Source: Oscillospiraceae bacterium (GTDB lineage: Bacteria > Bacillota_A > Clostridia > Oscillospirales > Oscillospiraceae). Taken from it: a stretch of 28,297 nucleotides of DNA. The notes under the pieces are model-generated. The model saw only the letters and a program-made list of their open reading frames with translations, ran no database searches and was not told the origin of the DNA. The stretch spans positions 1 to 28,297 of the forward strand of contig CADBKB010000006.1 of assembly GCA_902795095.1 (NCBI GenBank), in the 5' to 3' direction. How positions within the stretch are numbered: position 1 is the first letter of the stretch; every line of letters starts with the position of its first letter. Below are positions 130-20,327 of the stretch, one piece after another. The translations under genes and the position numbers were made by a program.

Positions 130-223
130 ACGCAGTGGGCAGCGTGATGCCGGACAGTACATACAAAATGACGGAATTCTTTTTGTGGGAAATAATCAAA
201 AATCCAGGAATCCGCAAATTTGC

Positions 224-252
224 TTGCGCTGGTTCCTCTGTGATTGTAAAAT
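224..252 (+). promoter_or_regulatory. Candidate SigA promoter of the SLH esterase gene
   Basis: TTGCGC (224-229) and TAAAAT (247-252) are separated by 17 bases. This would give a leader of about 70 nt before the ATG at 332. The -35 box is imperfect, and the call rests on sequence alone. It also argues against starting translation at the in-frame GTG at 185, which would lie upstream of the promoter. Confidence 0.5.
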
Positions 253-331
253 AAACACGGAAAAACCGATACAGGCGGATTGCCGCCCCATCAAAGAGCT
301 ACTCACGCTGAATCGAGAAAAGGAGAAGATG

Positions 332-2509
332 ATGAGAAAACGATTGATCGCAGCCCTGATCTGCATCGTCATGCTGCTGGGCATGCTTCCGGCAGTAAGC
401 GCGGCTGACGAACCGGTTCCCGGGCCGGTCGTTGTCGCTGATCCGGCTTCGCCCACGGGCTACACCGGACGGTTCACCTACTATGATCCCACCGCCAGCC
501 AGGTCTATTTCTGCGGCGACCTGAACCTGAGCAATTTTGAGGATCGTTCAGACACCAGAACCTATGCGCCGAAGGAGTACAGGCCCGGTCTGACCCGCCG
601 CGGCGGCAGCCAGTTCAAGGAGCCCATGCAGAAGCTCGACGGCGGCTACTGGTACTATGAGCTGCCCCTGGCCGCCGGCGCCAACCAGTACTGGTTCAAC
701 ATTGGAAACAACAACCGCATGATGCCTGACCCCGCCAACGCGCCGAAGTGGAGCCCCAACAGCTCCGCCACCAAGGACGCCTACAACTGCGTCTATGTGC
801 CCTATGACGAGAAGCAGGGAAGCGAGCTTTTGAAGGCCCGCGAGGCGGAGCTGCCCCGGGAAACTGAGAAGGGCAGCTGGGAGTACGTGCCCTACAAGGT
901 CGGGAACAACACCTTCTACATGGGCGTCTATCTGCCCTACGGCTATGACGAAAACCGGGCCGAGCCCTACAAGACCGTCTACCTGGTCCACGGCTGGGGC
1001 CAGGATGAATCCGACTGGATGGGCATCGGCTCCGCCCCGAACATCATGGACAATCTGATCGCCGAGGACCGCACCGCGTCCGCTGTGGTGGTCTCCCTGC
1101 CGAACAACAACAATTCCATCGGCAGCCAGAACGACAAATACGCCGCGCTGTTCAATACGGTCCTGCAGCATTACAACGTCTCCGGGGATGCGAAGGATCG
1201 TGCCCTCGCGGGCCTGTCCATGGGCAGCCGCTACACCAGAGCCGTCATGGAGACCGATCCCGAGAGCTTCGGCTACTATGGCCTGTTCAGCTGCTCCGAG
1301 ACCATCACGCCCTCGACGCCGAATCTCGACAAGGCGCACATCCTCATCGGCGTCGGCGTGTTCGACGGGGCGAACTATCAGAACGCCACCACCACGAACA
1401 CCCAGAATATGGAGAAGGGCGGCTTCTTCTCCAAAACCCTGAACGTCGCGGGCGCCCACGATTTCAACACCTGGAGCCAGTTGCTGCGTATGTTCGCCGA
1501 GGACTACCTCTGGAAGCCCTGGGCCTTCGGCGATGGCACGGCGCCGGCAGTGGATAAGACCGCCCTGGCCGAGGCGATTGCGCTGTATGAATTCAAGCCG
1601 CCGATGAATTACACCGTAGAATCGATCCGGGTTCACGATGCGGCGGTCGCCCATGCAAAGGAGATCTATGCCAGGGAAGACGCCACGCAGGCCGAGGTCG
1701 ACGCTGCAGCCCAGGACCTGATCGACGCAGCTCGCGGCCTGACAGCGCCGGATTGGAGCGCTCTGGAGCCCGCCGTGGAGGCCGCCCGGAAGGTGGACAG
1801 GAGCAAGTACACCGAGGAGTCCGTGGCAGCGCTCGACGCAGCGCTGAAAACGGCCGAGGTTCTGATCGGCGAGGGAAGCGTTTTGCAGTCCGACATTGAT
1901 GCGGCTGCCGAGGCGCTGACTGCCGCCGTTTCATCCTTGGTTCCCAAGGATGAGCCGCCCTTCCTGTTCGACGACGTGCGCGACGAAGGCAAATTCTACT
2001 TCGGTCCCGTCTACTGGGCATATTTTGCCGATCCGCAGATCACCAACGGCGTGGACGCCACCCACTTCGGCCCGGACAATCCCTGCACGAGAGGCCACGT
2101 GGTGACCTTCCTGTGGCGTGCCGCCGGGTGCCCGGAGCCCGCCGCTGCGGAATCTCCCTTCACGGATCTCAAGCCCGGCGCCTTCTATGAGAAGGCCGTG
2201 GCCTGGGCCGTAGAGAAGGGCATCACCAAGGGCGCGACGGACACCACCTTCGCTCCGGATGCCACCTGCACCCGTGGACAGATCGTGACCTTCCTGTACC
2301 GCTTCAAGGATTCTCCCGCCGTGGAGAAGGCCAACAGCCCGTTCACGGACCTCAAGCCCGGCGCCTTCTACGAGGACGCCATCGCCTGGGCCGTGGCCGC
2401 CAAGGTGACCAACGGTATGACCGACACCACCTTCGTGCCCGACGGCACCTGCCTGAGAGGCCAGGTCGTCACCTTCCTCTACCGCGCCATGGACGCCGGG
2501 AAAGCGTAA
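332..2509 (+). CDS. Secreted SLH-anchored esterase (CE1/esterase D-like, feruloyl or acetyl xylan esterase type)
   Basis: This 725-residue protein is exported and probably held on the cell wall. A hydrophobic signal peptide (about residues 1-25) contains LLGMLP and ends near SAA. An N-terminal region resembling the beta-sandwich that precedes many bacterial feruloyl esterases is followed by an alpha/beta-hydrolase domain with VHGWGQDESDW. The likely triad is Ser296 in GLSMG, Asp345 in VFDG and His376 in AHDF. Two FIVAR-like helical repeats span about 408-535, and three SLH repeats span about 544-725. GGAG at 322-325 sits 6 nt before the ATG at 332; the ATG at 329 is nearly as good but closer. 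Known CE1 enzymes cut ferulate or acetyl esters from xylan; the exact substrate here is inferred. The gene ends at a strong hairpin. Confidence 0.85.
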   Translation: MRKRLIAALICIVMLLGMLPAVSAADEPVPGPVVVADPASPTGYTGRFTYYDPTASQVYFCGDLNLSNFEDRSDTRTYAPKEYRPGLTRRGGSQFKEPMQKLDGGYWYYELPLAAGANQYWFNIGNNNRMMPDPANAPKWSPNSSATKDAYNCVYVPYDEKQGSELLKAREAELPRETEKGSWEYVPYKVGNNTFYMGVYLPYGYDENRAEPYKTVYLVHGWGQDESDWMGIGSAPNIMDNLIAEDRTASAVVVSLPNNNNSIGSQNDKYAALFNTVLQHYNVSGDAKDRALAGLSMGSRYTRAVMETDPESFGYYGLFSCSETITPSTPNLDKAHILIGVGVFDGANYQNATTTNTQNMEKGGFFSKTLNVAGAHDFNTWSQLLRMFAEDYLWKPWAFGDGTAPAVDKTALAEAIALYEFKPPMNYTVESIRVHDAAVAHAKEIYAREDATQAEVDAAAQDLIDAARGLTAPDWSALEPAVEAARKVDRSKYTEESVAALDAALKTAEVLIGEGSVLQSDIDAAAEALTAAVSSLVPKDEPPFLFDDVRDEGKFYFGPVYWAYFADPQITNGVDATHFGPDNPCTRGHVVTFLWRAAGCPEPAAAESPFTDLKPGAFYEKAVAWAVEKGITKGATDTTFAPDATCTRGQIVTFLYRFKDSPAVEKANSPFTDLKPGAFYEDAIAWAVAAKVTNGMTDTTFVPDGTCLRGQVVTFLYRAMDAGKA

Positions 2510-2936: not shown

Positions 2937-4337
2937 TTATGCTCTCAAACGGTAGGTTTTGCCGGCGGGGACGACGATGCCGTCGTCGGTGAGCTCGGCG
3001 AGCAGCGCCCGCACCTGGGCCGAGGGAATGCCCAGCAGACGGCCAAGCTGTGCCGGCGTGAGGGCGGCGCGGTCGGTCAGCTCGTCGATCAGCATGGACT
3101 TCTGCGCTGCGGCTTCGATGCGCATGGGGTTTTCGGTCGGTCCGCCGGCCTTCTTTTTCCGCGGCCCGAAGCGCAGGGTGACGGTCGTCCGGTCCGGGCC
3201 GTAGCTTTGCGCGATCTCCGGCTCCGGCCAGCGCTGTTCCCGCCAGATGCGCAGGATGTTGGGAATGCCGCTGCCGGCGTGCCGGCCCACGTCGATGCGA
3301 TTGAACAGCTTTAAGAGCGTGCCGTTGCGCGGATCGGACAGGCCGCCGGTTTTGGCGGCGTCCAGGCCGATGCGAAAGCTGCCGGGGTTGGATACGGTGA
3401 CGCGGCCCGGCTCCAGGCACACCGTCAGTCCGCCCGTCCCGCGGTAGTCGGCATTGACCAGACTGTTGGTGATCGCCTCGCCTACGGCAGCGCTGACCTC
3501 CGGACCATGCTTTGCCGCGAGCCGGGGCAGCAGGCGGGCGCAGACGCGTGTGTAGAATTCATAGACGCCTCCGGACCAGTCGCCGGCGGTCGAGCAGAAG
3601 CGCTGCGCCGGATCGTCCGCTTCCTGATAGTCGAGGAAATAGCGGGGAAAGACCAGGACGATCTCCGGTTCGCTGCCGAACATCAGCAAACCCGCGGAGG
3701 TGGGGTGCAGACGTCCGTTCTCGTCGATCCCCAGGACGCCGGATCTTCTCAGAAAGTCTTCCTCCGGAAGCGACAGCCAGGGATGGTCGGGATTGGCCTG
3801 CGTCATGGCGTCCCGATAGCTGTGTACCGCGGCTTCGTTCAGGACCTCAGGTCCGAACTGCGTCCACAGGCGCAGATCCTGGGCGCGCTCGTCGGCGTCG
3901 CGGACCATGGCCTGGATCTCCTCGCGGCTGCAGCGGCAGTCGCCCTCGCCCTTGCGGCGGTAGGTGTTGAGGGGGTTGCCCTCCACATAGACGGGCTGAT
4001 AGGCCCGCTCTGCCCGGGGCACGCGGATGACCAGGATCCGGCAGCCCTCCACGGCCTCTATGGTGACGTCCGCTGGGCTGAGGATGTTGACGCTGGCCAC
4101 CCGGGGGTCGTTGACCATGGTCCAGAATTGCTGCCGCAGCCCCTCGGGATCCGGCAGATCCACCGGATGCAGGGACTTGTCCTTGTGCTCCTCCACACCG
4201 AGGAGCAATAAGCCGCCCATGGCGTTGGCAAAGGCGGAATAGGTTTCCCAGATGCTGTGGGGCAGGCCGCCCAGAGCTTTTTTCGCCTCAATACGGTTGT
4301 TCTCCGTATATTGCTCAAGATGCTTCAGATCGATCAT
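2937..4337 (-). CDS. AlbA_2 (Schlafen-type) and HATPase domain protein with C-terminal winged helix, putative regulator
   Basis: This 466-residue protein resembles clostridial ATP-binding regulators once named RecG-like. An N-terminal AlbA_2 domain (about 1-120) carries NRIEAKKALGG and FANAMGGLLLLGVEE. A GHKL-type ATPase lies around 270-390, with EAITNSLVNADYRG as the N-box, NPGSF, and RHAGSGIPNI as the distal ATP-lid motif. The last 60 residues form a winged helix (LTPAQLGRLLGIP). The start at 4337 has GGAGG 7 nt upstream. The in-frame ATG at 4367 overlaps the predicted -10 box and is rejected. It stands alone, divergent from the 1365-residue SLH protein, so local control of that gene is possible but unproven. 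Ligand and targets are unknown. Confidence 0.8.
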   Translation of the reverse strand: MIDLKHLEQYTENNRIEAKKALGGLPHSIWETYSAFANAMGGLLLLGVEEHKDKSLHPVDLPDPEGLRQQFWTMVNDPRVASVNILSPADVTIEAVEGCRILVIRVPRAERAYQPVYVEGNPLNTYRRKGEGDCRCSREEIQAMVRDADERAQDLRLWTQFGPEVLNEAAVHSYRDAMTQANPDHPWLSLPEEDFLRRSGVLGIDENGRLHPTSAGLLMFGSEPEIVLVFPRYFLDYQEADDPAQRFCSTAGDWSGGVYEFYTRVCARLLPRLAAKHGPEVSAAVGEAITNSLVNADYRGTGGLTVCLEPGRVTVSNPGSFRIGLDAAKTGGLSDPRNGTLLKLFNRIDVGRHAGSGIPNILRIWREQRWPEPEIAQSYGPDRTTVTLRFGPRKKKAGGPTENPMRIEAAAQKSMLIDELTDRAALTPAQLGRLLGIPSAQVRALLAELTDDGIVVPAGKTYRLRA

Positions 4338-4365
4338 AACGCCGCCTCCGGATCCTGTTTGCTCC

Positions 4366-4394
4366 ATTATATCAGAGTCTGCCGAAAAAGCAAA
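4366..4394 (-). promoter_or_regulatory. SigA promoter of the AlbA_2/HATPase gene
   Basis: On the reverse strand TTTGCT (4394-4389) lies 17 bases before a perfect TATAAT (4371-4366). TTGCTT with a 16-base spacer is an alternative reading. Transcription would begin about 20 nt before the ATG at 4337, which supports that start. Confidence 0.7.
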
Positions 4395-7500: not shown

Positions 7501-8692
7501 CTTCGGCCTGGTACTGAAGCCCACAGCGGTGGACAAGACCTGGCTGGGGCTGCTCATCAAGGACGCGGAGATCGAGCTGAAGCACGAGGAGCGGTACACA
7601 GAAGCGTCCCTGGCGGCGCTGGCAAGCGCGCTGGCGAGCGCGAAGGACGCCTACGACCACGCCACAGAGCAGTCCGCCGTCGACGCGGCCGCCGCCGCGC
7701 TGGATCTTGCGTTGAACACCATGGTCGGCAAGTCCGTGGACAAGCGTGAGCTGGAAAAGGCCCTCAAAAAGGCGGAGCTGCTCAATTTGAACGATTATAC
7801 GCCGTTGAGCGCTATGTCGTTGGCCGTTGCTGAAATGAAAGCCGAATCGGTTTTGGAGAATGATACGGCGACCCAGGAAGAAGTGGACAAAGCCGCAAAG
7901 GATCTGAATGACTTTATCGCGAACATGGAGAAGAAACCGGGGGCCCTGGACAAGGCAGAGCTGATCGAGCAGATCGTCGAGGCGGACACGATCGACGAGA
8001 CCGGGTACACCGAAGAATCCATCGACGCTTTGGAAAAGGCCGTGGCTGACGCCAAAGAGGTCCTGAATCACCCCGCCGACCAGGCGGAGATCGACGCCGC
8101 GACCCAGACGGTGAAGGACGCCATCGCCGCGCTGAAGGAAACGGAGCTGCCCTTCCGGTTTGACGACGTCAAGGATGAGAGCAAGTTCTATTTCAAGCCT
8201 GTTTATTGGGCCTATAAGGCCACGCCGCAGATCACCAACGGCATCGACGCCACCCACTTCGGGCCGGACCGCGGCTGCACCAGAGGCCAGGTGGTGACCT
8301 TCCTGTGGCGTGCCGCCGGCTGCCCGACGCCCGCCGGCACCGAGACGGGCTTCACCGATGTGAAGCCGGGAGCCTTCTATGAGAAGGCGGTGGCCTGGGC
8401 TGTGGAGAAGGGCATCACCAATGGTATGAGCGACACCACCTTCGGGCCCGACGCCACCTGCACAAGAGGTCAGATCGTCACCTTCCTGTGGCGCTTCAGA
8501 GGGAGCCCCGAGCCCGTGAACATGGAAACCGGCTTCACCGACGTGAATAAAGAGGCCTTCTATGCCAAGGCGGTGGCCTGGGCCGTGGAAAACAACATCA
8601 CCAAGGGTATGACCGCCACGACGTTTGTCCCGAATGACACCTGCACGAGAGGCCAGGTCGTCACCTTCCTGTATCGGTCCGTGGCAGGATAA
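4595..8692 (+). CDS. Large secreted SLH-anchored adhesin-like protein (choice-of-anchor J, InlB-like, FIVAR and SLH domains)
   Basis: This is a 1365-residue surface protein. A signal peptide (about 1-25) contains LLGMLP and ends at ALA. Residues about 30-205 resemble a choice-of-anchor J/cleaved-adhesin jelly-roll (WSEDFEDSETWNAWT, with YLISPAIELP). Four diverged modules of about 100-110 residues follow (about 214-320, 337-436, 512-625 and 645-742). InlB/Flg_new-like repeats lie near 450-510 and 835-905 (FQGWFSD, LYTGW). Four FIVAR-type helical repeats span about 907-1190, and three SLH repeats span about 1190-1365. GGAG lies about 6 nt before the ATG. No enzyme motif was seen, so binding to a surface or polysaccharide is the likely role, by inference. 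It has its own promoter and a bidirectional terminator shared with nadE. Confidence 0.8.
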   Translation: MKKRILCNLLVLVLLLGMLPVTALAGGGSQVVWSEDFEDSETWNAWTSIDANYDVCGWTRDGTEESCTMYNYACSPRPLGEDVTPAASDDYLISPAIELPLDFEYELTFDARMIQAEDGPPYSRTDFYVIDADYPQFSQSMKNMPYLCFEQVMPYPNEGWKSYRFDLTAYAGKKICLVFHHIDQTANQYQLDNFQLTQYEYDSHIERICVTNVPEPEVGLSVEDMRESGIVIADTVNLALVPGSLEYYKTVNEHYELVTGAFEDGGEYDVVFQLQVKDGAFTYADAIGSVNGRKAFVTLDDKGTEDDADDIIEIGYYYGYLHAPQKPLDTLPLFLTPPVAGKTPDFEAYPRTDAFTKTALYWCEVYEDYSESPMMSASDHYEAGKRYRCYFELKPDEGFCFTDHVQAIVNGDTALRHDAGLSDGGLWFFADYEALEDDSCTIRFCTEYGDTPAPITGRIGAWMQLPHLPDQPNAKFAGWGFQVDAGASDAMNGSLLFSGSRTLYAIWLDAITAPEVGICTYGAGSDAFHTTVVIDPYADFSVVEQVPHEPVLWWTDKADVGKPGLRFRGQFDAAETYYGQLLLEADGDHYFAEDAAQAMAFSGAEPDQADVNAQQMCIDFHLDVPGDKTLQSARICVPTRIPGYPVDATTNIGVYSLTPGVNAEPSTGLWAQKEDVGDYTNVYVGSQKPGQTYYGEFILRPTGSVIINEDIQLTIDGASEISRYTRDDAPGLVFVIYAVKIMDTYGFTAVRRSTDNTYPCGWFHADFESRWSTLFDFAFVPGGDHWIKAMAEPGYVFLEWRKNDGSEQVISKDNPYFFTLDNNDWNIQAVFAPTHTVSFLNAHGEPPADQTVVDGGLATEPKGLTADDYIFQGWFSDSACTQAYDFSTPVTGDLILYTGWKYAPGTVATDKTDLNEAIADAGKIETEHYTDESVAAFQAALEAAEGVQSDPNASQAAIDAALENLNNAVFGLVLKPTAVDKTWLGLLIKDAEIELKHEERYTEASLAALASALASAKDAYDHATEQSAVDAAAAALDLALNTMVGKSVDKRELEKALKKAELLNLNDYTPLSAMSLAVAEMKAESVLENDTATQEEVDKAAKDLNDFIANMEKKPGALDKAELIEQIVEADTIDETGYTEESIDALEKAVADAKEVLNHPADQAEIDAATQTVKDAIAALKETELPFRFDDVKDESKFYFKPVYWAYKATPQITNGIDATHFGPDRGCTRGQVVTFLWRAAGCPTPAGTETGFTDVKPGAFYEKAVAWAVEKGITNGMSDTTFGPDATCTRGQIVTFLWRFRGSPEPVNMETGFTDVNKEAFYAKAVAWAVENNITKGMTATTFVPNDTCTRGQVVTFLYRSVAG

Positions 8693-8754: not shown

Positions 8755-9507
8755 TCAGAAATTGAACACCGGACCGTCGTAGGGGAAGGTGGGGAAGACG
8801 GAGAGCTTGAACAGATTCGCCTTGTGGCGGCGGTCGATCTCCTTTTTTGTCGCCTCGTCGTCGCATTCGCCGGTGCGGATGTAGCGGTCGAGCACCGCGT
8901 AGGTGAAGCCCAGGTTGTCCTCATCGGTTTTGCCGCACAGGCCGTCGATGGGCACCTTGTCCACGAACCGGGAGGGCAAGCCCAGATACCGGCCGATGGC
9001 CTTGACCTCCTGCACCGTCAGCTGACAGAGCGGGCCGAAGTCGCCGGCGCCGTCGCCGTAGCGGGTGGAGTAGCCCACCCAGTCCTCGGAGAGGTTGCCC
9101 GTGTTGGCCACGCGGCCGTTGTTGCACTGGGACACCGCGTAGAGGGTGGTCATGCGGATGCGCGGGGGCAGATTGATGCGGGACTGATCGGACACAAAGC
9201 CCACGGCCTGCTCCACAGCGCCGTAGATCGCGTCGTAGGCGGGCTTGATGTTCAGCTCATAGGAGCGGATGCCCAGATGCTTGACCACATCCCGGGCCAC
9301 GTCGATGTCATGCTGCTCGCCGTTGGGCAGCAGCACGCCGATCACCCGGTCCGCGCCCAGAGCCTGCACGCACACTGCGGCGCACACGGTGGAGTCCTTG
9401 CCGCCGGAGATGCCGATGACGGCGTTGCAGCCGGGGCCGTTGACCGAGAACCAGTCCCGGGTCCATTCGATCACGTCTTTTGTCACTTTTTGTACGTCAA
9501 AACTCAT
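8755..9507 (-). CDS. nadE: Ammonia-dependent NAD(+) synthetase
   Basis: This 250-residue cytosolic enzyme converts nicotinic acid adenine dinucleotide, ATP and ammonia to NAD+, the last step of NAD synthesis. The PP-loop SGGKDS is at residues 34-39. The family stretches GNLSEDWVGYSTRYGDGAGDF and KVPIDGLCGKTDED are both present. There is no N-terminal nitrilase-type glutaminase domain, so it should use free ammonia. GGAGG lies 7 nt before the ATG. It is the last gene of the hisS-aspS-aldolase group, 25 nt after the aldolase gene, and ends at a shared bidirectional terminator. Confidence 0.95.
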   Translation of the reverse strand: MSFDVQKVTKDVIEWTRDWFSVNGPGCNAVIGISGGKDSTVCAAVCVQALGADRVIGVLLPNGEQHDIDVARDVVKHLGIRSYELNIKPAYDAIYGAVEQAVGFVSDQSRINLPPRIRMTTLYAVSQCNNGRVANTGNLSEDWVGYSTRYGDGAGDFGPLCQLTVQEVKAIGRYLGLPSRFVDKVPIDGLCGKTDEDNLGFTYAVLDRYIRTGECDDEATKKEIDRRHKANLFKLSVFPTFPYDGPVFNF

Positions 9508-10118: not shown

Positions 10119-11894
10119 TTATTCCGGCTGGACCAGCGCAATGTGCAGCTCGTCGAGCTGGCGCTGCTCCACGCTCGAGGGAGCGTCCATCATGACGTCC
10201 TGGGCGTTCTTGTTCATGGGGAAGGGGATGATCTCGCGGATGGAGTCCTCGCCCGCCAGCAGCATGACCATGCGGTCCACGCCCGGAGCGATGCCGGCAT
10301 GGGGAGGCGCGCCGTAGCAGAAGGCGTTGTACATGGCGGGGAACTTGGCCTTGACGTCCTCCTCGCCCAGGCGGACCATCTCAAAGGCCTTGATCATGAT
10401 CTCCGGGTCGTGGTTCCGGACCGCGCCGGAGGAGAGCTCCACGCCGTTGCACACCAGATCGTACTGGTCGGCGCAGATGGTGAGCGGGTCGATCTCGCCG
10501 CGCTCGGCCTGCTCCAGCACGGCCTTGCCGCCGGTGGGCATGGAGAAGGGGTTGTGGCAGAATTCCAGCTCGCCGGACTCCTCGCCGATTTCGTACATGG
10601 GGAAGTCCACGATCCAGCAGAATTCGTAGCGCTCCCGGTCCATATGGCCGGGCACCGCGGCGCCGAGCTTCTTGACGATGACGCCGGCGGTCTTCTGGGC
10701 GACGCCGAGCTTGCCGGCGCTGACGCCCACGAGGCAGTTGGGGGTGAGGCCCAGCTTCTCGATGACCGCGTCCTTGCGGTCAGCCAGGAACTTGGAGATG
10801 CCACCGACGAAGTTGCCGCTCTCGTCCATGCGGAACCACATGGGCCGGGCGCCGGCCTGGACCTCCACCTCAGCCATGACCTTGTCAATGGCCTTGCGTG
10901 CCAGGTGACAGTCGGAGACCACCACGGCCTTGACGCGGTTGCCGGGGGCGAAGGGGGCAAAGTCGATGCCATCCACCAGGTCGGTCATGTCCTGCACGGT
11001 CAGATCGATGCGCAGGTCCGGCTTGTCGGTGCCGTAGGTCTCCATGGCGTCAACGTAGCGGATGCGGCGGAAGGGAGCCTCGGAGGCGACGGAATACGTG
11101 CCGTATTTGGCGAAGATCGGGGGCAGCACGTCCTCGATGACGGAGAAGACCTCATCCTGGCCGGCAAAGGCCATTTCCATGTCGAGCTGATAGAACTCGC
11201 CGGGGCTGCGGTCGCCGCGCGCGTCCTCGTCGCGGAAGCAGGGGGCGATCTGGAAATAACGGTCGAAGCCGGCGGTCATGAGCAGCTGCTTGAACTGCTG
11301 GGGCGCCTGGGGCAGGGCGTAGAACTTGCCGGGATGCTTGCGCGCCGGCACCAGATAGTCCCGCGCGCCCTCGGGGGAGGAGGCGGTCAGGATGGGGGTG
11401 GTGATCTCCAGGAAATCGTGGCGCAGCATGGCCTCGCGCAGGGCGGCGATGACGTTGCAGCGCAGGATGATGTTCTTCTTGACGGCGGGATTGCGCAGGT
11501 CGAGATAGCGGTAGCGCAGGCGCTGGGTCTCGTCGGCCTCGCGGCTGCGGTTGATCTCGAAGGGCAGCTCATTGTAGCGGCAGCGGCCGAGGATCTCCAC
11601 GCTCACAGGGGAGACCTCGATCTCGCCGGTGGGCAGCTTGGGATTCTTGCTGGCGCGCTCGCGCACCGTGCCGGTGACCTGAATGGTGGATTCCTTGTTG
11701 AGGGACTTGAAGATCTTCATCATCTCCTCATTCTCCACCACGATCTGGGTGGTGCCGTAGAAATCGCGCAGGATCACGAAGGCAAAGTTGCTGCCGACCT
11801 CGCGGACGTTTTCCATCCAACCGGCCAGCGTCACCTGCTTGCCCGCGTCGGAAAGGCGCAGCTCCCCGCAGGTATGGGTTCTGGACTGGAACAT
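10119..11894 (-). CDS. aspS: Aspartyl-tRNA synthetase
   Basis: This 591-residue bacterial-type class II synthetase charges tRNA(Asp). An N-terminal OB-fold anticodon domain (about 1-110, AGWMENVREVGSNFAF) is followed by the catalytic core. Motif 2 is FRDEDARGDRSPGEFYQLDMEMAF-like, with its first arginine in FRDED. The inserted GAD domain lies about 290-420, and motif 3 is APPHAGIAPGVDRMVML. Length and order are usual for bacterial AspRS. GGAG stands 8 nt before the ATG at 11894. The gap to hisS is 15 nt, so the two are almost certainly cotranscribed under the upstream T-box. Whether it discriminates tRNA(Asp) from tRNA(Asn) cannot be settled here. Confidence 0.95.
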   Translation of the reverse strand: MFQSRTHTCGELRLSDAGKQVTLAGWMENVREVGSNFAFVILRDFYGTTQIVVENEEMMKIFKSLNKESTIQVTGTVRERASKNPKLPTGEIEVSPVSVEILGRCRYNELPFEINRSREADETQRLRYRYLDLRNPAVKKNIILRCNVIAALREAMLRHDFLEITTPILTASSPEGARDYLVPARKHPGKFYALPQAPQQFKQLLMTAGFDRYFQIAPCFRDEDARGDRSPGEFYQLDMEMAFAGQDEVFSVIEDVLPPIFAKYGTYSVASEAPFRRIRYVDAMETYGTDKPDLRIDLTVQDMTDLVDGIDFAPFAPGNRVKAVVVSDCHLARKAIDKVMAEVEVQAGARPMWFRMDESGNFVGGISKFLADRKDAVIEKLGLTPNCLVGVSAGKLGVAQKTAGVIVKKLGAAVPGHMDRERYEFCWIVDFPMYEIGEESGELEFCHNPFSMPTGGKAVLEQAERGEIDPLTICADQYDLVCNGVELSSGAVRNHDPEIMIKAFEMVRLGEEDVKAKFPAMYNAFCYGAPPHAGIAPGVDRMVMLLAGEDSIREIIPFPMNKNAQDVMMDAPSSVEQRQLDELHIALVQPE

Positions 11895-11909: not shown

Positions 11910-13274
11910 TCAGATGGTTTCACGGATGACGGCGCCGCCCATCCGAGCGGCCAGGCCTTCCTGGATCAGGGCGGCGGCCTCGTCGGCGGACAAGGTCTGC
12001 TGCACGCCGGTGGCCAGCTCCTTCACCGAGCACTTGCCCTGGGCCAGCTCATCCTCGCCCAGGAAGATGACATAGGGGATGCCGAGACGGTCGGCGTACT
12101 GCATCTTGGCCTTGAATTTCCGGGCCTCGGTGTAGAGCTGGACGCGGACGCCCTGCTCCCGGAGCCGGGTGGAAAGGGCAATCGCGCCGCCCAGGGCCTC
12201 GTCGCCCATGGGCAGTACCAGCACGTCCGCCGGAGCGGTGGGCAGGTCGGGATTCAGCATGCCCTGCTCGCCAAGCACGTAGAACAGACGGGTCAGACCG
12301 ATGGAGATGCCCACGCCGGGCAGCTGACGGTCGGTATAATAGGCGGCCAGATTGTCGTAGCGGCCGCCGGAGCATACGGAGCCGATCTCGGGATGATCGA
12401 GCATGGTGGTCTCGTAGACGGTGCCGGTATAGTAGTCCAGGCCGCGGGCGATGGTCAGATCCACGGCGAAGTTTTCCTCCGGCACGCCGAATTCGCCCAG
12501 GTAGCCCACCACGGTGGCGAGCTCCTGCAGACCCTCGTCGAAGCGTTCGCTTCTGCCGCGATAGGCCTCCAGCGCCGCGAGCACCTCGGCGTTGGAGCCG
12601 CCGATGGAGATGAAGCGCAGGATCTCCTCGGCCTTCTCCTCGCTGATGCCGTCGTCCTCGCACAGCACCAGGCGGACGTTCTCTGGGCCGATCTTGTCCA
12701 GCTTGTCCACGGTGCGCATGATATCGCCCGCCCGGTCGGAAAGCCCCAGCAGCTCATAGAAGCCGTTCAGGATCTTGCGGTTGTTGACGCGGATCTGGAA
12801 GCGGGTCAGGCCCAGGGCGCGGAAGGTGCGGTAGATGATGGAGGGGATCTCCGCCTCGTTGATGATGGAGAGCTTGCCATCGCCGATGATGTCGATATCG
12901 GCCTGGTAGAATTCGCGGAACCGGCCGCGCTGGGCCCGCTCGCCGCGGTAGACCTTGCCGATCTGATAGCGGCGGAAGGGGAAGCACAGCTCGCCTGAAT
13001 GGATGGCGACGTATTTTGCCAGGGGCACGGTGAGATCAAAGCGCAGGGCCAGGTCGTTGTCGCCCTTCTGGAAGCGATAGATCTGTTTTTCGGTTTCGCC
13101 GCCGCCCTTGGCCAGCAGGACCTCCGCGGATTCGATGGCAGGGGTATCCAGGGGCGTGAAGCCGTACAGGGCATAGGTGCGGCGCAGGATCTCCATGATG
13201 CGCTCCATCTGCATCTGGGGTGCAGGGAGCAGCTCCATGAAGCCCGACAGGGTGCGGGGTTTGATTTTTTCCAT
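11910..13274 (-). CDS. hisS: Histidyl-tRNA synthetase
   Basis: This 454-residue class II synthetase charges tRNA(His). Visible marks are LALRFDLTVPLAKYVA, motif 2 YRGERAQRGRFREFYQ (about 109-124), the histidine-specific ARGLDYYTG (276-284), and motif 3 GVGISIGLTRLF. A C-terminal anticodon-binding domain (about 360-454) begins near DVLVLPMGDEA. The sequence lies on the type with ARGLDYYTGTVYE and FYQADIDIIG motifs. AAGGA precedes the ATG by about 9 nt. It is the first gene after the T-box and is followed by aspS. Expression should rise when charged tRNA falls. Confidence 0.95.
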   Translation of the reverse strand: MEKIKPRTLSGFMELLPAPQMQMERIMEILRRTYALYGFTPLDTPAIESAEVLLAKGGGETEKQIYRFQKGDNDLALRFDLTVPLAKYVAIHSGELCFPFRRYQIGKVYRGERAQRGRFREFYQADIDIIGDGKLSIINEAEIPSIIYRTFRALGLTRFQIRVNNRKILNGFYELLGLSDRAGDIMRTVDKLDKIGPENVRLVLCEDDGISEEKAEEILRFISIGGSNAEVLAALEAYRGRSERFDEGLQELATVVGYLGEFGVPEENFAVDLTIARGLDYYTGTVYETTMLDHPEIGSVCSGGRYDNLAAYYTDRQLPGVGISIGLTRLFYVLGEQGMLNPDLPTAPADVLVLPMGDEALGGAIALSTRLREQGVRVQLYTEARKFKAKMQYADRLGIPYVIFLGEDELAQGKCSVKELATGVQQTLSADEAAALIQEGLAARMGGAVIRETI

Positions 13275-13290: not shown

Positions 13291-13548
13291 GATGGTTGAA
13301 AAAAGAATACTCCCGTCCCAGTACATGGGACGAGAGTAGATCCTACTTCGTGGTGCCACCCAATTTCAGTCTTGCGACTCTTTTGGCCTGCTGCGGGCAG
13401 GGACCGGCGATTTCGGCGGATGCCTTATACGCGCGCTCGGCGAATGTCCTTCACGCATGGCCGCGCCGGAAGCTTACAGCCGGGGCTTCCTTCTCTGGGG
13501 GCGGGCGATCGCGCTACTGCTTTCGCGTCATTGCGCCATGTTCAGTTG
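13291..13548 (-). promoter_or_regulatory. T-box riboswitch leader of hisS-aspS with overlapping Asp/His specifier
   Basis: On the reverse strand the conserved T-box GGGTGGCACCACG (13361-13349) precedes a terminator hairpin and T-run directly before hisS. Upstream are Stem I hallmarks: AGTA of the specifier-loop S-turn, and AGAGA and GTAA of the distal region (around 13525-13465). On the 3' side of the specifier loop the RNA reads GAAGGACATTCGCCGAGC. Matched by eye to the known glyQS Stem I pattern, in which GGC precedes AUUC, the specifier position holds GAC (13448-13446), Asp. CAU (13446-13444), His, overlaps it by one base. The leader begins at the stop of the mgsA-like gene, and no separate promoter is evident. 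Confidence 0.9.
13298..13337 (-). terminator. T-box-controlled intrinsic terminator
   Basis: Read on the reverse strand, a 12-bp stem with one mismatch (13337-13326 with 13320-13309) has a GTACA-type loop and is followed by ATTCTTTTTT. Its 5' arm can instead pair with the T-box to form the antiterminator when uncharged tRNA binds. Confidence 0.85.
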
Positions 13549-13974
13549 TCAGCGGATGGATTTGATGGAGCGGCGGGGATGGATCATCTCGCGCCAGTCG
13601 AGGTCGCCGCGCTGCAGGCCCATGATGAGCATTTCCGCGGAGGCCAGGTTGGTGCCCACGGGGACATTGTGCTTGTCGCAGTGGCGCAGGGTTTCGATGA
13701 TGCGCTGATCCTCCCAGGGGTCGCGGTTGTCGGGGTCGGAGAACATCAGCACCAGATCAATCTCATTGTAGGCGATGCGGGCGTCGATCTGCTGATGACC
13801 GCCGTTTTTGTGGGACAGGAACAGGCTGATCGGCAGCCCCGTCGCGTCGGCCACGAGGCGGCCGGTGGTGGCGGTGGCGAACAGATTGTGCTTGGCAAGG
13901 ATGCTCTTGTAGGCGGTGCAGAATTGCACGAGCAGCTCTTTTTTCTTGTCTTGTGCGGTCAGCGCAATATTCAT
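13549..13974 (-). CDS. Methylglyoxal synthase-like protein with altered active site
   Basis: This 141-residue protein is plainly in the MgsA fold family (LFATATTGRLVADATGLP, QQIDARIAYNEIDLV, NVPVGTN, RGDLDWRE). True MgsA turns dihydroxyacetone phosphate into methylglyoxal. Compared with E. coli MgsA, His19 is Gln8, the catalytic Asp71 in GGDQQ is His60 in GGHQQ, Gly46 is Ala35, and the PHDPD segment with His98 and Asp101 is PWEDQ. Asp91 is kept as Asp80. These losses make classical activity doubtful, although the frame is intact and the rest is well conserved. GGAG lies 8 nt before the ATG. It follows the minD-like gene by 40 nt and runs straight into the hisS T-box. A binding or altered catalytic role is inference. 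Confidence 0.8.
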   Translation of the reverse strand: MNIALTAQDKKKELLVQFCTAYKSILAKHNLFATATTGRLVADATGLPISLFLSHKNGGHQQIDARIAYNEIDLVLMFSDPDNRDPWEDQRIIETLRHCDKHNVPVGTNLASAEMLIMGLQRGDLDWREMIHPRRSIKSIR

Positions 13975-14014: not shown

Positions 14015-14749
14015 TCAACGCAGCATCAGCGGTATGCTTTCGCCCTCCAGGCGGCGGGCGATGTTGGCGCAGGCTCTGGCGGCGGGACAGCCCTGGGCAT
14101 TGCACAGGGGCACGCCCCAGGCGGCGGCGAGTATCACATCGGCATGCTCGGGGACCAGGCCCAGCAGGGGCAGGCCGACGGTGTCCATGACGTCGTCGAT
14201 GTTGGTGCGCAGGCGATTGTAGAGCCGGGGAGAGACGCGATTGACCACCACCCGCGTCCACCGGGGACCGAGCTCGCCGGCCAGCGCGCCGGCACGCTCG
14301 GCGTCGCGCATGCTGGCCGGGTCGGCCTGCGTTACCACCACGGTGCGGTCAGCGCGGCGTACGGCCATGCGGAACAGGGCGCCGATGCCGGCGGGGGCGT
14401 CGAGCAGGATCCAGTCGAAGCGTTCCCGCGCCTGTGCCAGCAGACGGTAGAACGCGTGCTCCGGGACGGACTCCGGCTCCGCCACGGGGGCGGTGAGCAG
14501 ACGCAGCGACGGGATCAGGGGATGGGAAGGGGCGTCGGCCAGGGTGCAGCTTTCTTCGATGACGTCGAGGAAGCTGACGGAGGCTTCGTCACGCATCCCG
14601 AGGGAGATGTCGAGATTGCGCAGACCCACATCGAGGTCCACACAAAGAACGCTCCGGCCTTCCTTGGCCAGAAAACTCGCGACGGCGGCGCACAGGGTGG
14701 TCTTGCCGGTGCCGCCCTTACCGGATACGAAGGCAACGACCTGCCCCAC
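14015..14749 (-). CDS. minD: MinD-like ATPase (ParA/MinD family)
   Basis: This 244-residue P-loop ATPase has the deviant Walker A KGGTGKTT (11-18), the MinD hallmark VDLDVGLRNLD (37-47) and LLDAPAGI (Asp117). MinD positions the division septum by recruiting MinC to the membrane. The protein is shorter than typical MinD (about 265-270), and its end (RRLEGESIPLMLR) is not a clear amphipathic membrane-targeting helix. No minC or minE is beside it. The start is GTG at 14749 with GGAGG about 8-9 nt upstream. A near-consensus promoter lies before it, and the mgsA-like gene follows. It may be a divergent MinD or another ParA-type switch. Confidence 0.75.
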   Translation of the reverse strand: MGQVVAFVSGKGGTGKTTLCAAVASFLAKEGRSVLCVDLDVGLRNLDISLGMRDEASVSFLDVIEESCTLADAPSHPLIPSLRLLTAPVAEPESVPEHAFYRLLAQARERFDWILLDAPAGIGALFRMAVRRADRTVVVTQADPASMRDAERAGALAGELGPRWTRVVVNRVSPRLYNRLRTNIDDVMDTVGLPLLGLVPEHADVILAAAWGVPLCNAQGCPAARACANIARRLEGESIPLMLR

Positions 14750-18419: not shown

Positions 18420-20327
18420 CTATACCGCGGCGGGCACGCCGGCGTTTTCCGGTGCGTAGGTGGGGACGATCTCGCGCAGCAGGGGCCGCACATCGCCGTC
18501 GGGCTGATGGCACAGCGCCTCCAGCTCCTCCAGCTGGGCCTGGAAGACCTCCTCGTTGATCTCCAGCGGCTTGCCGATGTGGATCAGCCGGTTCGCGGTG
18601 GAGCGGATGCCCTCCTCGTCCAGCAGCAGCTCCTCATAGAGCTTTTCGCCGGGGCGCAGGCCGACATAGCGCACCTCAATGTCCACATCCGGCTCGTAGC
18701 CGGACAGGCGGATCATATTGCGGGCCAGATCGTCGATGCGCACGGGCTCGCCCATATCCAGCACGAAGATCTCTCCGTCCCTGGCGTAGGTTCCGGCCTG
18801 AAGCACCAGCGACACCGCCTCGGGAATGGTCATGAAATAGCGGATGATATCCGGATGGGTGACGGTGACAGGGCCGCCCTGCTCGATCTGCCGGCGGAAC
18901 AGGGGAATGACGCTGCCGCTGGAGCCCAGCACATTGCCGAAGCGCACGCACACGAATTTGGTGTCGGACCGGCGGCTGAAGGACTGCACCAGCATTTCAC
19001 AGATCCGTTTCGTCGCGCCCATGACGTTGGTGGGATTGACGGCCTTGTCCGTGGAGATCTGCACAAAGATCTCTGCGCCGCAGCGATCCGCGGCCCGGCA
19101 GAGGTTGCGCGTGCCGAACACATTGTTCTTCACCGCCTCGCGGGGGTTATCCTCCATCAGCGGCACATGCTTATGGGCCGCGGCATGGTAGATGATCTGG
19201 GGGCGGTATTCATCGAAAACGGCGTCCACACGGCCTGCGTCGCGGATGGAGCCGATGAGCACATCCAGATGGAGGGCGGGATGCCGCCGGCGCAGCTCCT
19301 GCTGGATCTCATACACGCCGTTCTCGCTGATATCAAAAATCACAAGGCGCGCAGGCCGGTGCGTGGCGATCTGCCGGCACAGCTCTGCGCCGATGGAACC
19401 GCCGCCGCCGGTGACCAGGACGGTTTTGCCCTCGACATAGCCGGCGATCTCCTCAAGATTGACGCTGACGCTGTCCCGGCCCAGCAGATCCTCGATCTGG
19501 ACGTTGCGGATCTGCCGGATATCCAGACGGCCGGAGGCGATCTGCGTGATGGAGGGCAGGATCTTGGTTTCGCAGCCGGTGTCCTGGCAGATGGAGGTGA
19601 GGGCGCGGAGCTGGGAGGCGGTGGCGCTGGGGATGGCCAGAATGATCTGCTCCACCTGGTAGCGCCGCACCATGGCGGGGATATCCTTCCTGCCGCCGAC
19701 GATGGGCACGCCGCGCAGACGGCGGCCCTGCTTGAGGGGATCGTCGTCAATGATGCACACAACCTGGTTGCGGGAGGTGTCGGCCTCGCTCAGATCCTTC
19801 AGGGCCACAGAGGCGGCGGCGCCGGCGCCCACCAGCATGGTGCGCGCCCGATGACCCGCTCCGCTCCGGCGCAGCATACTGCGGAGGATCCGGTAGGAGT
19901 AGCGCACTGCGCCGACGCCCAGGGAGAGAAATACGGCGTTCAGAAAGGGGAAGCTGCGGGGGATCTGCCGCCCCAGCAGCGACATGCCGAAGAATTGGAT
20001 GACGCATACGATCACGGAGGCGGCGATGATGCGGATCGCCTCCTCCAGACCGGCGTATTCCCAGAGGCTGGAGTACAGACCCAGCAGCCAGAATACCGTC
20101 AGCATCATGATAAGATATGCCGGCAGGAACCGGACGAGATTCCCCAGGTGAGAGGATGCGGCCATCTGGGAGAATTGGAATTCAAACCGCAGGGCCAGGG
20201 AGAAGAACTGGACAAAGCTGCCCAGGATGGCGTCCATCAGCATCAGGAGGATGACCCGGACAAGCTTCTTCTTGCGATCGTTCTCTGAAAGGGTCCGGCG
20301 GGCGGAGAGAGAGGATAAAAAGCTCAT
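18420..20327 (-). CDS. Membrane-anchored nucleotide-sugar 4,6-dehydratase/epimerase (CapD/PglF/FlaA1-type)
   Basis: This 635-residue protein has about four N-terminal membrane segments (about 24-47, 66-86, 98-118, 127-147). A CoA-binding-like Rossmann domain (about 160-285) follows, then an extended SDR domain. The NAD site is TGGGGSIG (306-313). The active region shows Ser425-Thr426-Asp427-Lys428 and MGATK (436-440), where Met replaces the usual Tyr of YxxxK, as in UDP-GlcNAc 4,6-dehydratases. Such enzymes open synthesis of 6-deoxy amino sugars for capsules, glycoproteins or wall polymers. AGAGG stands about 8 nt before the ATG. No glycosyltransferase cluster adjoins it. Supplying the polymer that SLH proteins bind is an attractive but untested idea. 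Confidence 0.88.
   Translation of the reverse strand: MSFLSSLSARRTLSENDRKKKLVRVILLMLMDAILGSFVQFFSLALRFEFQFSQMAASSHLGNLVRFLPAYLIMMLTVFWLLGLYSSLWEYAGLEEAIRIIAASVIVCVIQFFGMSLLGRQIPRSFPFLNAVFLSLGVGAVRYSYRILRSMLRRSGAGHRARTMLVGAGAAASVALKDLSEADTSRNQVVCIIDDDPLKQGRRLRGVPIVGGRKDIPAMVRRYQVEQIILAIPSATASQLRALTSICQDTGCETKILPSITQIASGRLDIRQIRNVQIEDLLGRDSVSVNLEEIAGYVEGKTVLVTGGGGSIGAELCRQIATHRPARLVIFDISENGVYEIQQELRRRHPALHLDVLIGSIRDAGRVDAVFDEYRPQIIYHAAAHKHVPLMEDNPREAVKNNVFGTRNLCRAADRCGAEIFVQISTDKAVNPTNVMGATKRICEMLVQSFSRRSDTKFVCVRFGNVLGSSGSVIPLFRRQIEQGGPVTVTHPDIIRYFMTIPEAVSLVLQAGTYARDGEIFVLDMGEPVRIDDLARNMIRLSGYEPDVDIEVRYVGLRPGEKLYEELLLDEEGIRSTANRLIHIGKPLEINEEVFQAQLEELEALCHQPDGDVRPLLREIVPTYAPENAGVPAAV

Follow-up and report, generated by a model that had tools for sequence, protein, structure and literature searches.

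The leader RNA in front of hisS and aspS in the window, by which we mean the whole stretch of 28,297 nucleotides analysed here from an Oscillospiraceae bacterium, is in all probability (about 0.92) a transcription-attenuating T-box riboswitch that reads tRNA-Asp through the codon GAC. A histidine codon, CAU, overlaps GAC in the specifier loop and appears to be incidental, a by-product of the RNA fold. The initial annotation had proposed that this one leader may sense both tRNA-Asp and tRNA-His; the comparison with relatives, as far as leader sequences can tell, speaks against dual sensing, which finds no support in the data, since the overlap (GACAY, with Y a pyrimidine) is present in 6 of 43 aligned leaders and the third base of CAU covaries as a base of a helix.

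The T-box leader and its operon

The features of the locus are given below in window coordinates; row counts refer to the 43 aligned hisS leaders described in a later section.

13323-13540, minus strand: T-box leader RNA (RF00230, 53.5 bits, E 5e-11, model positions 1-219, full length)
13522-13526, minus strand: Stem I helix under the specifier loop, 5' strand (GCGAA), pairing with 13440-13444
13515-13521, minus strand: 5' side of the specifier loop, AGC-AGUA (AGUA in 43/43 rows, though the parser that chose the rows itself required AGUA or GGUA)
13492-13496, minus strand: AGAGA, Stem I distal motif, aligned to the RF00230 consensus AGAGA
13472-13480, minus strand: Stem I apical loop region, GCUGUAAGC (from the sequence and the RF00230 alignment)
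13446-13448, minus strand: specifier codon GAC (Asp), in the RF00230 specifier columns; GAC in 43/43 leaders
13445, minus strand: unpaired purine A directly after the specifier, forming the middle base of the apparent CAU (A in 38 rows, G in 5)
13440-13444, minus strand: 3' strand of the helix, UUCGC, beginning with U13444, which also ends the apparent CAU (closing pair in 43/43)
13349-13361, minus strand: T-box sequence, GGGUGGCACCACG (sequence and RF00230), with UGGC at 13355-13358 predicted to pair with the tRNA end
13326-13363, minus strand: antiterminator, GGG...CCC fold with a 7-base bulge, -9.7 kcal/mol
13299-13338, minus strand: intrinsic terminator, a 13-bp hairpin (13308-13338) followed by a U run, -22.2 kcal/mol, z -6.63
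11910-13274, minus strand: hisS (TIGR00442, 404.5 bits, cut-off 286.75)
10119-11894, minus strand: aspS (NF001750, 692.6 bits, cut-off 443)

The placement of a T-box before hisS and then aspS, as first annotated, is thus borne out by the RF00230 match upstream and the TIGR00442 and NF001750 matches downstream. On the minus strand hisS and aspS run in one direction behind the methylglyoxal synthase gene (13549-13974) and that of a MinD-like ATPase (14015-14749); the leader lies between the methylglyoxal synthase gene and hisS. Vescimonas fastidiosa shows the identical gene order (minD, methylglyoxal synthase, hisS, aspS). Elsewhere in the window, Pfam matches identify ordinary genes for an SLH-domain protein with an esterase domain (185-2509, plus strand), a Schlafen AlbA_2 protein (2937-4367, minus), NAD synthase (8755-9507, minus) and a polysaccharide biosynthesis protein (18420-20327, minus).

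The leader is the sole Rfam match in the window at E <= 0.1. Its 53.5 bits fall below the RF00230 gathering score of 93, so that a default Rfam scan of the window lists nothing, though Stem I, specifier loop, T-box bulge and terminator, the parts that define membership of the family, are all present; the T-box itself is far beyond chance. Sixteen related loci (L001, L005, L006, L009, L010, L017, L018, L019, L029, L036, L046, L048, L049, L051, L056 and L059) gave no match at the gathering score either, though parsing finds a hisS T-box leader in all 16, which makes the low score look like a property of the whole clade. We also considered, and rejected, a second T-box upstream that would be specific for His, as the window holds one Rfam T-box match only.

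The 5' arm of the terminator (13326-13338) falls inside the antiterminator built on GGGUGGCACCACG. The antiterminator fold is not better than those of shuffled sequences (z -0.32), and energy folding of the window sequence, either of the whole leader or of Stem I alone, did not return the T-box Stem I; since the minimum-energy folds did not give it, the structure of Stem I was judged by the family model and by covariation. The distal AGAGA motif is well kept among the aligned leaders, with four of its five bases invariant and the remaining one at 90% or more.

Specifier loop and lower helix

On the minus strand, positions 13452-13440 read GAA-G-GAC-A-UUCGC, in which GACAU occupies 13448-13444 and CAU, at 13446-13444, begins two bases after the start of GAC. 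Both the presence of GACAU in the specifier loop at this place and the frames assigned to it by eye in the initial annotation, with GAC in the standard position and CAU shifted by two, agree with the minus-strand sequence and the RF00230 alignment. The family model sets GAC against the consensus 'uuc' of GAA-a-uuc-a, read here as the specifier columns. Fixing the specifier with the Rfam model, a check suggested at the outset, thus places GAC, not CAU, in the specifier columns; the Asp codon is conserved in this canonical frame in all 43 leaders, and the His codon lies outside the frame that GAC occupies. The Rfam register may itself slip by one base if the model treats the loop-closing pair as an insertion: in the Vescimonas leader (L208) ACA instead of GAC falls in the specifier columns, a shift that we attribute to the closing C-G pair being such an insertion.

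The base that completes CAU belongs to the helix below the loop. Alignment columns 15-19 pair with columns 110-114 in 99.1% of cells across the 43 leaders, and pairing falls to 28-30% when the partner strand is slid by one column, to 27-33% by two and to 50-61% by three. The covariation score of the helix is 0.632 against a shuffled mean of 0.137, with none of 500 shuffles as high, and changes on both sides are seen at all five pairs, a measure equalled by 16 of 500 shuffles; as the aligned rows are related, these and the following shuffle frequencies are not independent tests. The closing pair (column 19) is C-G in 35 leaders, A-U in 4 and G-C in 4, paired in 43 of 43, a result reached by none of 100,000 shuffles. 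In the window this pair is A13522-U13444, and U13444 is the third base of CAU. Because the base after the purine pairs and covaries, the apparent CAU is a composite, in which C ends the Asp codon, A is the unpaired purine and U opens the lower helix; the two codons are not both made of unpaired loop bases.

hisS leaders of relatives

A search with HisS gave 80 related loci, for the most part from Oscillospiraceae and other Clostridia where named, and the 1000 bases before hisS were parsed for T-box leaders. GAC leaders were obtained from 41 loci, 35 gave no parse and 4 were dropped (L040, L050, L068, L080); the 41, the window and one Vescimonas record (L208) make up the 43 aligned leaders. One parser required a purine after the codon and four of five helix pairs; the one used for the counts set no condition on the purine or the closing pair and chose among four loop lengths. 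With shorter leaders of 450 bases, 35 of 81 parsed, 34 of them with GAC (L068 was misread).

GAC is kept in every aligned hisS leader. The two bases that follow it are AG in 32, AU in 3, AC in 3, GG in 3, GU in 1 and GC in 1, so that 37 of the 43 lack the His codon overlap, among them the closest relative of the window (L001, HisS 87% identical), which reads GACGU. The conservation of GACAY in relatives, on which the initial annotation had made dual sensing depend, therefore fails for most of them, which keep only GAC; the two codons are not jointly conserved in orthologous leaders. On the HisS tree of the 43 rows, those with GACAY are scattered and do not form one clade, and well-supported branches force at least three changes.

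A model built from the 43 rows and run on the 80 loci recovered all 41 parsed leaders and added a Stem I before hisS in L040, L045, L068 and L071. Read by eye, L040, L045 and L071 have GACAG and L068 has GACGG, none of them GACAY, which brings the tally to 6 of 47 leaders before hisS; these four and L033 were left out of the pair counts, and the closing pair of L071 is ambiguous. In the remaining 35 of the 80 loci, L002, L003, L007 and L054 among them, this model detects no Stem I ahead of hisS at E <= 0.1, and T-box control has therefore either been gained or lost among close relatives or diverged beyond the reach of the model. A wider, phylum-wide HisS search (E <= 1e-60) gave loci from 7 of 139 genomes; of these 7 loci, a good parse came from L201 alone, which is the same gene as L001.

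Several of these loci differ in layout. L033 has a Stem I match with GACAG after hisS and ahead of an aspS homolog (7784-7908), and L076 has a weak one after aspS (E 0.016, 43-row model). The T-box lies about 1 kb before hisS in L045 (2812-2919) and L071 (2864-2974), and an apparent small open reading frame separates the two in L014 (3354-3873); a second GGTGG motif in L014 was rejected as an extra T-box, since by eye it sits in this apparently inserted frame. In 15 of 31 GACAG loci aspS starts 599-3604 bases after hisS.

The tRNA end

The bases predicted to pair with the tRNA end are UGGC in 42 of the 43 leaders and UGGU in one. Transfer RNAs were taken from relatives rather than from the window's own genome (30 loci from five genomes); tRNA-Asp(GUC) genes end in GCCA, with discriminator G, in four related genomes, and tRNA-His(GUG) genes end in CCCA, with discriminator C, in three. 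The variable base of UGGN therefore matches the discriminator of tRNA-Asp, C facing G in all four genomes. As an argument against histidine this is weaker than it looks: the hisS T-box of the Tetragenococcus hdc cluster carries UGGA, which does not pair with C73 of tRNA-His, and the T-box database TBDB, according to its description (PMC7778990), does without the discriminator test for His T-boxes, given that pairing of C73 is possible. The fit of UGGC to tRNA-Asp thus does not by itself exclude tRNA-His.

Known systems

The Asp/His overlap of hisS-aspS T-boxes is already known, as GACAC in the specifier loop is described as characteristic of those of Bacilli in PMC5313534, which also cites Gutierrez-Preciado et al. 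2009 for the suggestion that GACAC interacts mainly with aspartyl-tRNA. The window shares the operon and the codon overlap with that type as described, and differs from it in having GACAU, in belonging to the Oscillospiraceae and in that most of its relatives lack the overlap. In the Listeria hisS-aspS leader (L209) the C after GACA falls on Rfam's first paired column, the same layout as in the window, and a Paenibacillus leader (L212) before hisS and aspS homologs has GACUU, with no His overlap. Naming is not uniform in print, the hisS-aspS T-box of MRSA being called a histidine T-box in PMC7927825. Among open-licence PMC papers, in searches that did not use the group name itself, no title concerned Oscillospiraceae leaders.

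The precedent invoked in the initial annotation, a two-codon T-box in Clostridium acetobutylicum, does exist: its codons are those for Asn and Glu, and both tRNAs have been reported to bind (Saad et al. 2013, via PMC4052509). As described there, it resembles the window in having overlapping codons within one specifier loop; in the window, by contrast, the second codon takes in a base that pairs and covaries, and it is not conserved. A hisS T-box type of the hdc cluster has the specifier CAC (PMC5313534). The example from Tetragenococcus muriaticus pHDC-Tm (L211) likewise precedes a hisS gene, but all of its CAC is in unpaired columns, an A is inserted ahead of the helix, there is no GAC at this place and, unlike in the window, no aspS is annotated within 2.5 kb downstream. 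Because this CAC is offset to the right of the Rfam specifier columns by one column, L211 is no clean yardstick for the frame.

Alternative readings

If the leader had dual specificity, the A13522-U13444 pair would open, tRNA-His would read CAU in the +2 frame with a G-U wobble, and either uncharged tRNA would lead to read-through. Such an arrangement can draw on the presence of GACAU, on hisS being the first gene, on the C. acetobutylicum precedent (PMC4052509), on the GACAC described for Bacilli (PMC5313534) and found in Listeria, and on the two loop-end pairs of the window, which are A-U and more easily opened than the C-G of most relatives. All five related GACAY loci also have aspS within 300 bases of hisS, but among the 18 related T-box loci with this spacing 13 lack the His codon. 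The rarity of GACAY, its absence from the closest relative and the covariation of its third base as a helix base weigh against dual specificity, as does the published description of TBDB (PMC7778990), which allows for frames -1, 0 and +1, and only within five loop bases, a rule that leaves a paired base out.

Such an overlap is at least as frequent in other T-boxes of the family with an NNC codon. From 90 high-scoring RF00230 places, 71 were parsed, some rows being out of register, and because only these parsed the control set leans to GUC and UAC codons. NNC codons occur in 52 of the 71 (GUC, UAC, AAC and AUC, for example), and 15 of the 52 have CAY at the shifted place, as in UACAU or GUCAC; in a strict subset the count is 13 of 35. 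The hisS leaders (6 of 43) are not enriched for CAY, the difference running towards fewer (Fisher p 0.09 and 0.03). With CAY in 15 of 52 other NNC T-boxes, the CAU overlap is not beyond chance. Taken together, we consider dual specificity very unlikely.

A milder version would make histidine a facultative second input: in GACAY lineages with a weak A-U closing pair (the window, L049 and L059) the pair would breathe and tRNA-His would use the +2 frame, an ability come and gone in evolution. We regard this, too, as highly improbable. A degenerate, non-working T-box is suggested by the score below gathering, but all T-box elements are present, compensatory changes maintain the helix, the terminator is strong (z -6.63) and the low score looks clade-wide, with 0 of 16 related loci reaching gathering; there is little chance that the leader has decayed. 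A leader that reads His only, with the Asp codon incidental, could appeal to hisS as first gene, to the waiver of the discriminator test for His in TBDB (PMC7778990) and to the UGGA of Tetragenococcus, likewise unmatched to C73, but is barely credible when the invariant codon in the specifier position is GAC and CAY is absent from 37 of 43 leaders.

Proposed control by tRNA-Asp and its implications

For the leader as a T-box that reads tRNA-Asp, we infer binding and antitermination of the following kind. The anticodon of uncharged tRNA-Asp would pair with GAC (13448-13446), and UGGC (13358-13355) would bind the GCCA end of this tRNA; the paired tRNA would stabilise the antiterminator, and RNA polymerase would read through into hisS-aspS. 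When tRNA-Asp is charged, the terminator (13338-13308 and the U run) would form instead.

The T-boxes of the window and of the 16 related loci would be missed by default Rfam annotation. For claims of dual codons in these T-boxes the result counsels caution. The second base downstream of the specifier belongs to a helix, so that wherever A and a pyrimidine come after an NNC specifier a His codon will be displayed, which may carry no meaning. The reading through tRNA-Asp agrees with the published suggestion that in hisS-aspS operons the charging of aspartate, not of histidine, controls hisS.
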